Position numbers and translations under genes: made by a program
Assembly: GCA_020630065.1 (NCBI GenBank)
Contig: JAHDCC010000002.1
Span: 51,646 to 115,645 of the forward strand
Origin: Acidimicrobiales bacterium
GTDB lineage: Bacteria; Actinomycetota; Acidimicrobiia; Acidimicrobiales; SZUA-35
Direction: 5' to 3'
Length of the DNA: 64,000 bases
In this document: piece after piece, positions 1 to 5,989 of the stretch
How positions within the stretch are numbered: the stretch's first letter is position 1
How the letters are laid out: each line of letters begins with the position of its first letter
The notes under the pieces: generated by a model
What the model was told of the DNA's origin: nothing
What the model saw: the letters and a program-made list of their open reading frames with translations, nothing else
Database searches by the model: none

Positions 1-1301
1 GGTGCTTTTTTCGCTACCTTCTTGGTGGCTTTCTTAGCAGGTGCCTTCTTGGCGATTGCCTTCTTGGCCCGCTTAGAAGAGGTAGCTTTAGCAACTGTCT
101 TACCAGAAGCTTTCTTGGCTACCTTCTTTGTCGCCTTCTTAGCTTTTTTCTTCGCTGTCTTTTTTGTAGCCACAATATTACTCCTTGTGAGATTCGGCTC
201 TCGAGAGGGTCCGTCGGTCAGGACATGTCTCTGTTGAGCCCTTGTCTTACTTTTTTTTGATTGCGAAACGTTTTCTTGGCGATTCGGAACTTTTGATTGC
301 GAGGTATCTGGTCGACGGCCGACGCTTTCCAGCGCAACGTTTATTCCTCGTCGGCTAGGATCATACGACTCAATTTTGACTCGTAGTTCTTGGCCGACAC
401 TTACAACATCTCGAGCTTTAGCAGGGGGTGGATCTCCCATAGACCGAGACGGCAAGTAGCATATCGCCGAACCAGTCTTTACGTAACATCCATGAGATGC
501 AAACCGTTCAACAACACATGTAGCAGTGTCGCCGATTGAGAACGCCGTAACGAACTCTAAGAACGAACGGGCGTCATTAGACTTCTCGACGTTAGTCGTA
601 GCGGACTGGGATTTGTTAGGCCGTGTCTTCTTCTTTGAACTCTTCGGCAACGACTTTTTTTGTTCGGCAGGGGTTGAGTCCTTCCGATTCTTTTTCTTGC
701 GACCGGACGGGCCTTTTCCTCTGGGCTTCTTATTCGTATTAGAGGCAGAGGTCTTCTTGCCCGACGTTATGTCGTCAATGATGTCCTTTGCCGGTCCTGG
801 TCTTGATGTAGCTTTCGGTTTCGAACGGCGGGACTTACCTCGACGCGATTGCGAAGCCGACTGTCTGCTCTTAGGCCCTCGCACCGGGATGCGCTTGATG
901 AAGATCCATCCGATTCCCGAAACAGGTTTGCCGCCCAACAAGCGGTCAGGGTCGAAGAGCCAAGGATAGTCGCCATGAAATTCTTGAAATGAGTCATTGG
1001 AAAATACCGTCGCCTCAGCCCGCTCAGCGACCTGAAGAATAAACGCGTCTCCCCGGCCGACAGTGCCGGCCGGGGGAGCGATGAGTTCTCCAGCTTCAAG
1101 CGCTTCCTCATATTGTTGACGTTCGGAAGCGTCGATGCGGTGAGCAAAAGTGGCGTCTACGACAACGGTCAACGACTCGATTGTGTATTCAGCCAACAAC
1201 GCCGTAACGGCATCATCTAACTGAGCCAAACTGGGCAGATTGCGCCCTTCGGTGGCGATGTTAGATCCGTCGACAACGAAATTTGGGCGTGCGCCATTCA
1301 T
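1..1301 (-). CDS. PIN/NYN (Zc3h12a-like) ribonuclease with S1 domain and histone-H1-like tail, partial
   Basis: An open frame from ATG 1301 leaves the left edge without a stop (433 codons visible). Residues about 6-135 look like a Zc3h12a/NYN-type PIN nuclease: VVDGSN near residue 9, VVVDA near 48, and GRGDAFILQVAE followed by FSNDSFQEF, which supply the usual acidic metal-binding residues. A basic Ser/Lys/Arg linker follows (about 145-245). An S1-like OB domain comes next (about 250-325, from SIGDTATCVVERF to INVALES). After residue 376 the protein becomes almost only Lys, Ala, Thr and Val in AKKA/TKKV repeats, like a histone H1 C-terminus. The likely role is RNA binding and cleavage, with the tail adding nucleic-acid affinity. 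The ribosome-binding site at 1301 is weak. An in-frame GTG at 173 has a good AAGGAG seven bases upstream, so a separate short H1-like product is possible. The C-terminus lies outside the window. Confidence 0.75.
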   Translation of the reverse strand, partial: MNGARPNFVVDGSNIATEGRNLPSLAQLDDAVTALLAEYTIESLTVVVDATFAHRIDASERQQYEEALEAGELIAPPAGTVGRGDAFILQVAERAEATVFSNDSFQEFHGDYPWLFDPDRLLGGKPVSGIGWIFIKRIPVRGPKSRQSASQSRRGKSRRSKPKATSRPGPAKDIIDDITSGKKTSASNTNKKPRGKGPSGRKKKNRKDSTPAEQKKSLPKSSKKKTRPNKSQSATTNVEKSNDARSFLEFVTAFSIGDTATCVVERFASHGCYVKTGSAICYLPSRSMGDPPPAKARDVVSVGQELRVKIESYDPSRRGINVALESVGRRPDTSQSKVPNRQENVSQSKKSKTRAQQRHVLTDGPSREPNLTRSNIVATKKTAKKKAKKATKKVAKKASGKTVAKATSSKRAKKAIAKKAPAKKATKKVAKKA

Positions 1302-1376: not shown

Positions 1377-4300
1377 CTAGTTGGTTACTCCACCAAATGC
1401 ACGCTCTAGCAATTCAGCTTGTTCTTGATGATGGATTCCATTAGACCCAGTTGCGGGTGAACCAGACTCGGTTCGACTCGTTCGACGGATCGAATGGGTC
1501 TCGCCGTGTCGTTCATACAAGCGTCCTTTGACGGCGTTCCAAGCACCCATATTTTCGGGTTCTTCTTGAAGCCAGACGATCTCGCTCGCGTTCGGATAAC
1601 GTTCGAGTGCAGCCGCTACACCATCGAATGGCCAAGGGTACAACTGCTCAACTCGTACAACCGCATGTGTGGTCAACTCGTTGGAATCTCGGTACGCCAA
1701 CGCTTCGTTTGCAACTTTGCCTGAAGCGAAGATAACCCTAGTGACCGCACCAGTGTCGGCGACGTTAGGGTCATCCAACACTTCTTCAAACGATCCGGTA
1801 AGAAGGTCCTCGACCTTAGAGCGTGTGTTCTTTGCCCGCAAACCAGACTTCGGTGTGAACACAACTAAAGGACGGCTGAGTTGGCGAACAACCTGGCGAC
1901 GAAGGAGGTGGAAGAACTGAGCAGCCGTGGTCACATTCGCAACTTGGATGTTGTCTTCAGCGCATAACAGAAGGAAACGTTCGAGACGGCCGGAAGAGTG
2001 CTCGGGTCCTTGACCCTCATACCCGTGAGGGAGAAGCATCGTGAGACGAGTCGTGTCGTTCCATTTGTCTTCGGCTGCTACCAAGAACTGGTCGATGATG
2101 ATCTGAGCGCCGTTAACGAAGTCGCCGAACTGTGCTTCCCACATGACCATCGCTTCGGGATTACCGATTGCGTAACCGTATTCGAAACCTAGGGCCGCAT
2201 ACTCAGACAGAGTGGAGTCATAGATCCAAAGGTCGGTTGAATCGTCTTTCGCTGCGTTCTTCAGCGGCGTGTACTCTTCACCGGTTTCATAGTTATGGAG
2301 GGTGGCGTGACGGTGAGCGAATGTTCCTCGCCGTGAGTCTTGCCCCGCTAGGCGTAGGGAGCGCCCTTCAGCCAAAATCGATCCCATGGCGAACGCTTCG
2401 CCTAGAGCCCAGTCAACTTCGCCTGCCGCCCACATCTCGTCACGCGCATCGAACTGCTTCTGCAGCTTCGGATGTACGACGAAACCATCAGGCCGGGTGA
2501 GTAATGCTTCATAGATACGATCGAGGGTTTCTCGATCTACGCCTGTGCTGACGTGAGGGAGCACACCTTGAGGAGGCGGCGCAGGCTCGGCTTTAACATT
2601 CTTATCAGATGTGTCCTGGCGGGTGACATCGAGCGCCGCCTGGAACCTGCTGCTGTAGGAATCCCGAACACTGTCGGCGTCGGCTTGTTCGATGCTTCCT
2701 TCCTGAATCAGCGAGTCGACATATAGAGATAGCGCAGATGGCCGTTCCGAAATCTTGCGGTACATCATCGGCTGGGTGTAGCTTGGATCGTCGCCCTCAT
2801 TGTGGCCGTGGCGACGATAGCCAATCATGTCGATAACGACGTCTTTGTTAAATCGTTGACGATACTCGAATGCCAGCTTGGCAATATGAACACAGGCTTC
2901 TGGGTCATCGGCGTTGACGTGGAAAATTGGAGCCTGCACCATCTTGGCTACGTCGGTCGAATAGTCGCTTGAGCGTGACTGGTGAGGAGCCGTCGTGTAG
3001 CCGAGCTGGTTGTTGATAATGAGATGAACGGTGCCGCCGACTTTGTAGCCGTGAACCTGAGACAGGTTCAACGATTCGGTTACAACGCCTTGACCCGCGA
3101 ACGCAGCGTCGCCGTGAATCAACACTGGCAAGATCGGATAGTTGCCAGAGGTTGTGCCGTCCATGTGGGCGCGAGCCATACCAAGAACGACTGGGTCTAC
3201 GGCTTCAAGGTGAGATGGGTTAGCCGCCAACTCGATAGCCACCTTGTTGCCGTTTGAGCTTTCGTGCTCACCGATCAGTCCGAGGTGGTATTTAACGTCG
3301 CCGGTGCCTTGGACGGCACCTTCTTTGACGCCTCCTTCGAATTCAGCGAAAAGTTTTTCTGGGTCCTTGCCCATGATGTTTACTAGAACGTTCAACCGTC
3401 CACGGTGAGCCATACCGATAATGGCTCGTTCCATATCCGAATCGGCAGCGGCCGAAAGGACCGCGTCCAAGATAGGGACTGCGCTTTCAGCGCCTTCGAT
3501 ACCAAACCGCTTCTGGCCGACATATCGAGCCGCCAAAAACTTCTCGAGACCTTCTGCTGCAGTTAAACGGTCGAGGATGTGGGCTTTCTCATCGGCGTCA
3601 AATTCGACGCCGTGGCCTTCGAGGCGCTCCTGCATCCATCGCTTTTCTTCAGGGTCTGCGATGTGCATGTACTCGACGCCGTGGCTACGGCAGTACGCGT
3701 CACGCAGAACGCCTAAGATCTTGCTGAGCTTCATATACTTCGGCTCTCCGCCGATCGAAGCGTAAATACCTTCGGTCGAACCGGTCAAGAACTCCCGGTC
3801 CAAGTCCCAGATCGTCAGACCATAGGTTGCAGGATCCAACTCGGGGTGAGTTTTAGTAGCCGACTCGCGAAGTGGATTGACGTTACTGATCAGGTGTCCA
3901 CGGACGCGGTACTGGTTGATCAGCGTGTTGACGGCCATTTGTTTAAACGAAGCGTTGGCTTCATCATCTTCGGAGGCACCCTTATCGGTGTTCCAATCGA
4001 CCGCCTCGTATGGCACATCCATCGAGTCGAAGATGTCGTCATAGAAGTCATCTTCGCCTAGGAGTAGTTCGTGCACCTTCTTAAGGAAGAAACCGGATTC
4101 GGCGCCCTGAATGATTCGGTGATCATAGGTTGAGGTAACCGCTATCGTCTTTGAGATACCGAGCTGGGCAAGAACCTTTGGATCGGCAGCCGCGAACCCG
4201 GTAGGGAAACCAAGACGGCCAATTCCAATAATTGCGCCCTGTCCTGGCATCAGCCGAGGAACGGATTGAACCGTGCCGATCGTGCCCGGGTTGGTGAGGG

Positions 4301-5102
4301 TAATGTTGGCGCCGGTCATATCGTCTACAGAGATCTTGTTATCTCGAACCTTCGAGATGAGGTTGTCGTAGGCCTCCAAGAACTCTGCGAAGTTCATCGT
4401 CTGGGCCTTCTTGATCACCACGACAAGCAGCGAACGAGTCCCGTCAGGTTTTGGCATATCAACAGCCAAACCGAGATTCACATCTTCGTTCTTGATGATA
4501 CGTGGCTTACCGTCGCTGCCTTCAGCGTATACGTTGGCCAACGCAGGGACCGTTTCGTTAATCGCCCGAACGATGGCGTAGCCGATGAGGTGGGTGAAGC
4601 TCACCTTGCCGCCGCGGGTGCGGCGCAAATGGTTGTTCAAAACCGTTCGGTTTACTTCGAGTAGCTTGGCTGGGACTTCCCGGAAACTGGTAGCGGTTGG
4701 TACACCCAAACTAGCTTCCATGTTTGACGCGATAAGCGCCCCAACGCCACGGATAGGTTCGCCAGGTTCTTCTACCTTGGTCTCAGGTTTCGAAGCGGGC
4801 TTCTCGACAGCCGGAGCCTCCGATGCTGTCGGCGCAGCTGGTGCCGGCGCGGCAGGAGCGGGAGCTGGCTGGGCCGGGGCGGGAGCCGTTGGTGTAGGCG
4901 GACTTGTCGATTCGGTCGGTGTCAACGTTGACAGCGATGCCTGTGGAGGAGTGCCTGGTTGACGCGGGTCGTATCCTGCATCAAATTGGAGGCGCCATTC
5001 CTCAGGAACAGCCTTCGGATTTTCCCGATAGGTCTGGTATAACTCTTCGATAAACCAAGAGTTCTGTCCGTCGGTCGGGTTGGAATTCAGCTCGAAAGTC
5101 AC
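1377..5102 (-). CDS. kgd: multifunctional 2-oxoglutarate dehydrogenase/decarboxylase (E2o-E1o fusion)
   Basis: TCA-cycle enzyme that oxidatively decarboxylates 2-oxoglutarate with thiamine diphosphate; the fused acyltransferase domain belongs to the same complex. From the proposed start the protein is 1241 residues, usual for actinobacterial Kgd (about 1200-1270). Order: short helical N-terminus (NSWFIEELYQTYRENP), a Pro/Ala-rich linker (about 50-105), the E2o-like catalytic domain ending in TYDHRIIQGAESG, then E1o with MAHRGRLNVL, the GDAAFAGQGVV and NNQLGYTT thiamine-diphosphate region, and the C-terminal transketolase-like part. There is no lipoyl domain, as in mycobacterial Kgd. The frame is open up to 5228, but the extra N-terminal residues do not resemble the family. 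GTG 5102 lies 7 nt after a TACACT hexamer, which suggests a leaderless start. It is divergent from the exonuclease III gene. Confidence 0.95.
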   Translation of the reverse strand: MTFELNSNPTDGQNSWFIEELYQTYRENPKAVPEEWRLQFDAGYDPRQPGTPPQASLSTLTPTESTSPPTPTAPAPAQPAPAPAAPAPAAPTASEAPAVEKPASKPETKVEEPGEPIRGVGALIASNMEASLGVPTATSFREVPAKLLEVNRTVLNNHLRRTRGGKVSFTHLIGYAIVRAINETVPALANVYAEGSDGKPRIIKNEDVNLGLAVDMPKPDGTRSLLVVVIKKAQTMNFAEFLEAYDNLISKVRDNKISVDDMTGANITLTNPGTIGTVQSVPRLMPGQGAIIGIGRLGFPTGFAAADPKVLAQLGISKTIAVTSTYDHRIIQGAESGFFLKKVHELLLGEDDFYDDIFDSMDVPYEAVDWNTDKGASEDDEANASFKQMAVNTLINQYRVRGHLISNVNPLRESATKTHPELDPATYGLTIWDLDREFLTGSTEGIYASIGGEPKYMKLSKILGVLRDAYCRSHGVEYMHIADPEEKRWMQERLEGHGVEFDADEKAHILDRLTAAEGLEKFLAARYVGQKRFGIEGAESAVPILDAVLSAAADSDMERAIIGMAHRGRLNVLVNIMGKDPEKLFAEFEGGVKEGAVQGTGDVKYHLGLIGEHESSNGNKVAIELAANPSHLEAVDPVVLGMARAHMDGTTSGNYPILPVLIHGDAAFAGQGVVTESLNLSQVHGYKVGGTVHLIINNQLGYTTAPHQSRSSDYSTDVAKMVQAPIFHVNADDPEACVHIAKLAFEYRQRFNKDVVIDMIGYRRHGHNEGDDPSYTQPMMYRKISERPSALSLYVDSLIQEGSIEQADADSVRDSYSSRFQAALDVTRQDTSDKNVKAEPAPPPQGVLPHVSTGVDRETLDRIYEALLTRPDGFVVHPKLQKQFDARDEMWAAGEVDWALGEAFAMGSILAEGRSLRLAGQDSRRGTFAHRHATLHNYETGEEYTPLKNAAKDDSTDLWIYDSTLSEYAALGFEYGYAIGNPEAMVMWEAQFGDFVNGAQIIIDQFLVAAEDKWNDTTRLTMLLPHGYEGQGPEHSSGRLERFLLLCAEDNIQVANVTTAAQFFHLLRRQVVRQLSRPLVVFTPKSGLRAKNTRSKVEDLLTGSFEEVLDDPNVADTGAVTRVIFASGKVANEALAYRDSNELTTHAVVRVEQLYPWPFDGVAAALERYPNASEIVWLQEEPENMGAWNAVKGRLYERHGETHSIRRTSRTESGSPATGSNGIHHQEQAELLERAFGGVTN

Positions 5103-5109
5103 GCCCGCG

Positions 5110-5115
5110 AGTGTA
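5110..5115 (-). promoter_or_regulatory. -10 hexamer TACACT of kgd (leaderless)
   Basis: On the minus strand TACACT is followed by 7 nt and then GTG at 5102. This is the spacing expected if transcription starts at the start codon itself. No Shine-Dalgarno sequence is visible. Confidence 0.5.
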
Positions 5116-5203
5116 GTCGTTTCGCTTTGAGTAATCCCATTCAAAGCAGCGTTGTTTACATGTTGTATTCGAAGAGCTGCTATTGCGACACTACTAATAC
5201 GGA

Positions 5204-5209
5204 TAGGAT
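5204..5209 (+). promoter_or_regulatory. -10 hexamer TAGGAT of xth (leaderless)
   Basis: TAGGAT is followed by 6 nt and then ATG 5216, the family-typical start of exonuclease III (MLVATWNVNSL). A TTGCGA at 5183-5188 could serve as a -35, with a short 15-nt spacer. Confidence 0.55.
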
Positions 5210-5215
5210 GTGCCC

Positions 5216-5989
5216 ATGTTGGTCGCAACGTGGAACGTTAACTCGCTAAAAGCCCGGATGCCCAGGGTTGAAGAATGGCTCGCCGATGTTTCACCCGACA
5301 TCGTTTGTTTGCAAGAAACAAAGATGTCGGATGACAATTTTCCCGCTCTAACTTTTGCTTCTATGGGTTACGAGTCCGTTCATAACGGGCAAGGCCAGTG
5401 GAATGGGGTGGCGATTCTGTCGAAGGTTGGACTGTCTAACCCCACCTACGGATTTGCGCCCGGGATTGAACCCGATCCGGATTCTCGGCTCGTGTCTGCG
5501 ACGTGTGGGTCGATGCGAGTTCATAGTGTGTATGTTCCGAACGGGCGTGCACTCGACCATGAACATTATCGCTATAAGTTGTCTTGGCTCGAACGTCTGG
5601 TCGATCACCTGTCAGAGACAACAGACCCGAGCGAAGAGGTCATCGTCGCTGGGGACTGGAATGTAGCCCCGACCGATATAGATGTGTGGGACACCGCAAT
5701 GTTCGAGGGCGGCACGCACGTTTCTGCCGCCGAACGAGCGGCTCTCAAAAAGGTGCTCGACTGGGGCCTCGTAGATACGTTTCGAGAACGCTACCCAGAA
5801 CAACCGAAACTCTACAGCTACTTCGACTACCAGGCCGGTCGGTTCCACAAACGCCAAGGTATCCGTATCGACTTCGTGTTATCGAGTCAGACCGTCGCCA
5901 AAACGTCGACCATCGACCTCTTTGATCGAAACGCTCGAAAAGGTACGAAACCGAGTGATCACGTTCCCGTCTTGGCCGGTTTCTCGTAA
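5216..5989 (+). CDS. xth: exodeoxyribonuclease III (AP endonuclease)
   Basis: DNA base-excision-repair enzyme of the EEP (ExoIII/Ape1) family: 3'-5' exonuclease and AP endonuclease. The 257-residue protein starts MLVATWNVNSLKAR and carries DIVCLQETK (metal-binding Glu), the VYVPNGR segment, AGDWNVAPTDIDVWD (catalytic Asp and Asn), RIDFVLSS and the C-terminal KPSDHVPVLA (catalytic Asp-His). Length is typical (about 255-270). An upstream in-frame GTG at 5210 would add two residues. ATG 5216 is preferred because it lies 6 nt after TAGGAT. The gene is divergent from kgd, and nothing suggests a functional link between them. Confidence 0.95.
   Translation: MLVATWNVNSLKARMPRVEEWLADVSPDIVCLQETKMSDDNFPALTFASMGYESVHNGQGQWNGVAILSKVGLSNPTYGFAPGIEPDPDSRLVSATCGSMRVHSVYVPNGRALDHEHYRYKLSWLERLVDHLSETTDPSEEVIVAGDWNVAPTDIDVWDTAMFEGGTHVSAAERAALKKVLDWGLVDTFRERYPEQPKLYSYFDYQAGRFHKRQGIRIDFVLSSQTVAKTSTIDLFDRNARKGTKPSDHVPVLAGFS

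Follow-up and report, generated by a model that had tools for sequence, protein, structure and literature searches.

The window examined here, a 64,000-nt stretch (G000:C75:51646-115645) of a 3.7-Mb draft genome, opens within a minus-strand gene whose product combines a nuclease domain, an S1 domain and a Lys/Ala-rich tail. A sequence-only reading had proposed that one uninterrupted frame from 1301 to 3 joins the three parts, and the frame is indeed open, with an ATG at 1301 and 433 aa inside the window. Once the sequence to the left of the window was obtained, the gene could be followed to a stop at G000:C75:51504 (L002:11505), through a 100-N scaffold gap (L002:11547-11646) that abuts the left edge of the window and lies within the tail. 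Beyond the gap this frame continues as AKKAAKKATKNKK-stop, behind which come a hairpin and a T-run, and the Lys/Ala pattern on either side suggests that the frame is continuous across the gap. The neighbours are a Kgd/SucA-type gene upstream and a gene for an EttA-type ABC-F factor, EttA being a ribosome-binding member of that family, downstream; this setting was seen again around homologues. Assignment of the gene to a defence system was dropped, as PADLOC gave no defence-system match.

Table 1. Features of the locus. Positions are those of the window unless a contig is named; residues are those of the long protein.
Feature	Position	Strand	Basis or remark
NYN-S1-Lys/Ala-tail gene	3..1301 in window; whole gene G000:C75:51504-52946, ~480 aa	-	frame probably continuous across the 100-N gap
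NYN/PIN nuclease domain, Zc3h12a/Regnase type	828..1301, residues 1-158	-	PF11977, PDB profiles, AlphaFold, Foldseek
Basic disordered linker, poorly conserved, NYN to S1	582..827, residues 159-240	-	pLDDT mostly <50; conserved columns none
S1 RNA-binding domain, nearest to ribosomal protein bS1 domains	312..572, residues 244-330	-	profiles and model
Second linker, S1 to tail	174..311	-	length varies, stop-free in frame
Internal Shine-Dalgarno AAGGAG, in codons ACA AGG AGT (Thr-Arg-Ser)	181..186	-	comparison across homologues
Internal in-frame GTG, proposed start of tail-only protein	171..173	-	start-type codon conserved in homologues
Lys/Ala-rich H1-like tail, the proposed short protein, ~104 aa with nominal gap	3..173	-	composition, stand-alone counterparts
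Kgd/SucA-type 2-oxoglutarate dehydrogenase/decarboxylase E1, upstream neighbour	1377..5228	-	sequence and established family knowledge
EttA-type ABC-F factor, downstream neighbour	outside window		sequence and established family knowledge

The N-terminal domain matched PF11977 (RNase_Zc3h12a) over residues 9-110 with 23.9 bits against a cut-off of 23, and the same profile was matched by 28/28 family relatives. PDB profile searches identified KHNYN and ZC3H12A/B/C, and Foldseek with the AlphaFold model returned Regnase/ZC3H12 PIN domains at a TMt of about 0.6. Residues D11, N14, D85 and D103, which are invariant among 64 homologues, fall on conserved positions of the PDB matches, giving the PIN fold with conserved acidic active-site positions by which Zc3h12a-like NYN ribonucleases are recognised. 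While the fold and these four residues are shared with ZC3H12A/B/C and KHNYN, in those RNases a CCCH zinc finger or a KH domain takes the place of the S1 domain and Lys/Ala tail, and the first Asp of the Asp-Asp pair that precedes Phe in ZC3H12A and KHNYN is Gly in this protein.

The S1 domain scored 19.3 bits with PF00575 over residues 256-323, below the cut-off of 22, and 25 of 28 relatives matched the profile at E 0.01. A PDB profile search of the region identified ribosomal protein S1 (bS1) at E 6e-27, the domain was modelled by AlphaFold at pLDDT 94-98, and Foldseek found S1 domains, so that, despite the sub-cut-off Pfam score, profile and fold searches make the assignment unambiguous. 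The AlphaFold model as a whole (64 sequences; mean pLDDT 81) has two ordered domains, residues 1-158 and 244-330, with a disordered linker between them. In some homologues (L022, L184) this NYN-S1 linker contains tandem repeats, with ASDKR units and RRAAPAEPAVAAPAEPTK units.

Lys makes up 36% and Ala 32% of the tails. The earlier proposal of a nuclease, an S1 domain and a histone-H1-like tail fused in one protein was upheld both in its domains and in the fusion, which is conserved across Acidimicrobiia. By sequence, the short tail in the window had no match to Pfam HC2 (PF07382), the profile of the Hc2 family. HC2 was weakly matched by one of 28 long relatives, with the tail left out of the scan. 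Pfam found no HU domain in this protein, placing it outside the HupB/HupS type; the HU of this genome is a separate, tail-less 101-aa frame, and a sequence search of the genome's proteins found nothing else resembling the tail. The resemblance of the tail to H1-like proteins is one of composition only. That composition is shared with HupB/HupS/MDP1, whose H1-like tails play a part in binding DNA in mycobacteria and Streptomyces (PMC5676037, PMC5974015, PMC11229371), and which, unlike this protein, have an HU domain. Chlamydial Hc1/Hc2 and Pseudomonas AlgP are likewise small or repeat-rich Lys/Ala polypeptides, but the present tail differs from them in being encoded in frame within a nuclease gene.

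Several further features of the tails were observed. Motif KATSSARAKKAAARK is found in the tails of many family members. A motif resembling KKAAKATSSARAKKAAARK, with less repetition, recurs in the tails of L003, L004, L005, L007, L009-L011, L018, L020-L022, L024 and L025; a similar motif is present in L160, the stand-alone copy of G017. Scaffold or assembly gaps lie at like places in the tails of L016, L053/L124 and L161, and their recurrence inside Lys/Ala tails indicates that such tails break short-read assemblies. In L015 (~2700-3150) the tail changes frame within repeats (EEGLCPEGRQEGSGKE...) and extends toward the EttA start, through either a frameshift or an assembly error.

Homologues of the long protein comprised 112 distinct sequences, every one within class Acidimicrobiia, and a match was present in 28/39 genomes of the family and 141/248 of the order. 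Relatives with named records are Acidimicrobiales or Acidimicrobiia, mainly metagenome genomes. In a 296-genome sample of the phylum, matches outside Acidimicrobiia spanned the S1 region only, so the NYN-S1-tail combination seems confined to this class, and an Actinomycetota-wide family was dropped from consideration. Four sequences titled as Bifidobacterium breve group (L083, L094, L115, L116) fall with Acidimicrobiia on the protein tree, and their public names are probably wrong. The basic tail follows in the same frame in nearly all homologues and is lost in a few (L170, L184).

The sequence-only reading had also noted a GTG at 173 preceded by AAGGAG, and both are in place exactly, the GTG at 173-171 and the AAGGAG at 186-181. 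In all 28 family members AGG-AGY is followed at a short distance by a start-type codon in frame, GTG in 23 and ATG in 5, against a codon background in the same family genes in which 8% of Arg residues are encoded by AGG and 28% of Val residues by GTG. An exact Shine-Dalgarno (SD) sequence (AAGGAG or GAGGAGG) marks the tail onset in most of the first 94 distinct homologues, and an SD with an in-frame GTG, ATG or TTG exactly at tail onset was found in ~74 of the 112, a count that leaves out one of 75 scored (L173) as a chance match inside the tail and that refers to related sequences sharing ancestry, not to independent events. Before other start-type codons of the same genes, an SD occurred at 25 of 1256. 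The genome has an exact 16S 3′-end match with the canonical anti-SD, and predicted mRNA structure is weakest near the internal start.

One explanation of these observations is that the long fusion is the sole product and that the junction's SD-like and GTG codons arose by chance or encode a protein motif (TRS...VATKK). As this explanation would allow, any homologue with an intact frame could be translated as a single product, and the fusion occurs in several families that lack the signal. In other families, however, the SD is read as GAG-GAG-GCN (Glu-Glu-Ala), a different codon phase from AGG-AGY (Arg-Ser), as in Aquihabitans sp. G128 (L132), which has GAG GAG GCA CCC AGC ATG, and the residues over it interchange among RS, RR, EEA and QED while the SD persists and the start codon alternates between GTG, ATG and TTG. 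That the site is kept in both phases although the encoded amino acids differ indicates that the nucleotides are conserved rather than the protein. When codons were drawn synonymously with the protein held fixed, the site was present in a mean of 16 and a maximum of 25 of 86 sequences, whereas 70 of 86 have it, so that this null fails widely. SD and start codon are thus conserved beyond coding constraint, as expected of an internal in-frame start. On codon phase and codon choice a protein motif in place of a ribosome site was rejected, and a long protein as the only product is improbable, all the more as stand-alone tail genes, described below, occupy the same slot. The proposal of a second start at 173 for a tail-alone product is, at the level of sequence, strongly supported by the comparison of homologues.

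Approximately one third of homologues (Ilumatobacteraceae, Acidimicrobiaceae-like families and others) are without the internal signal, which means that the short form would not be universal; most of these retain the fused tail. In the flanks of L061-L140, EttA was the next gene after 9 of 17 homologues with the internal start, and exonuclease III after 10 of 13 without it. The idea of a single origin of the signal was dropped: on the tree, whose deep forks are weak, nine changes of the internal-signal label are needed, and the signal may have been gained or lost repeatedly. A search for sigma-70-like promoters on the coding strand inside the gene found none, and the short form would therefore have to arise from the long mRNA or from an unrecognised promoter.

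A second explanation is that two ordinary genes have merely lost the stop that separated them, the run-on from NYN-S1 into the tail being useless. This would fit the existence of the tail as a self-standing gene in three relatives, but it is at odds with the state of the linker between S1 and tail. Among 60 sequences this linker occurs in 32 lengths, from 20 to 157 codons, with zero in-frame stops, while the other two frames contain stops in 27 and 41 of the same sequences; the many length changes have never brought in a stop or a change of frame, and selection thus seems to maintain the fused reading. The fused tail is also retained in families that lack the internal signal. A useless run-on is, on this evidence, very unlikely. 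The S1-tail frame near 170-250, where a stop or frameshift would have undone the proposed fusion, is open in 28/28 family members; a chance ORF or a sequencing frameshift at the junction was ruled out by conservation of the frame among homologues. Taken together, the comparisons, drawn mostly from metagenome assemblies, show that the signal for internal initiation and the open frame of the fusion are conserved together.

Nor is the tail always a separate gene in homologues, an outcome that would have spoken against the fusion: it is nearly always fused, and separate in three relatives that lack NYN-S1. In these family members (G003, G016 and G017; loci L157, L160 and L161, of which L160 is the G017 copy) the NYN-S1 match is absent, and what lies between Kgd and EttA is a Lys/Ala gene standing alone, equipped with AAGGAG and a start codon. 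The sequence around its start reads AAGGAGCAAGACAC-ATG GCA GCA in G003 (56 aa), AAGGAGATAAAACTAAAA-GTG GCT GCA in G016 (with a gap inside) and AAGGAGAACATC-GTG GCA ACT in G017 (254 aa). In G016, within the stretch analysed, the tail gene has the Kgd-like gene on one side and EttA on the other, with one extra ORF between, and the 254-aa protein of G017 retains the motif AKASSSKAKKPAARKK, which resembles the one common in family tails. Since the fused form is found in outgroup families, the likeliest course is loss of the nuclease part, which left the nested tail gene free; the reverse order, with a stand-alone tail gene preceding the fusion, is less likely.

The reading favoured here is that one gene very probably yields two proteins from one frame, a long nuclease-S1-tail protein and a tail-only, H1-like form. 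Ribosomes starting at 1301 would make the long protein, an NYN/PIN-type RNase with an S1 domain to hold RNA and a polycationic tail, while ribosomes entering at the internal AAGGAG-GTG (186-171) would make the Lys/Ala tail alone, a putative histone-H1-like protein coating or condensing nucleic acid. The long form would act as an RNase that S1 keeps on RNA and the tail on nucleic acid, and the short form would be an H1-like protein that binds polyanions. With both proteins in the cell, as the conserved signals lead us to infer, the long one would cut RNA and the common tail would anchor both to nucleic acid, where the short form, as the commoner of the two, might share or compete for the sites of the long one. 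On a broader scale, much of Acidimicrobiales is likely to have an H1-like condensing protein without a gene of its own, made inside an RNase-S1 gene from an internal start, with one tail and one mRNA common to both products; some lineages would then have lost the nuclease and freed the nested gene.

The two-product gene is also compatible with another function for the tail, namely that it is not a nucleoid protein but binds other polyanions, such as polyphosphate or rRNA and ribosomes, making the long form a granule- or ribosome-bound RNase. The relation of the S1 domain to bS1 and the frequent position of EttA beside homologues with the internal start are consistent with this, and there is a precedent for polyphosphate in AlgP, which has a KPAA tail and both associates with polyphosphate granules and acts at them (PMC9239181). 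Against it, the H1-like tails of actinobacterial HU act on DNA (PMC5676037, PMC5974015). By analogy, action on DNA and action at polyphosphate are both possible, and a tail without a nucleoid role is plausible, if on the doubtful side.

Two-start in-frame genes producing a long and a short isoform include infB, clpB and cheA. The present gene resembles these and other sources of bacterial N-terminal proteoforms (PMC11005335) in having an internal SD and a same-frame start, but differs from infB, clpB and cheA in that the short isoform would be a whole H1-like protein, with a gene to itself in relatives that lack the long part. Searches of the openly accessible literature turned up no account of this protein family, nor of any H1-like protein arising from an internal start. 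If the proposal is true, the locus would provide a clear comparative case of a same-frame nested gene that has a conserved ribosome-binding site to itself, maintained in both codon phases, and that occurs free in lineages without the host gene. In Acidimicrobiia, a little-studied class, it would point to candidates for an RNase and for an H1-like nucleoid protein, and second products of Lys/Ala-tailed actinobacterial proteins may be going unnoticed in ORF annotation.
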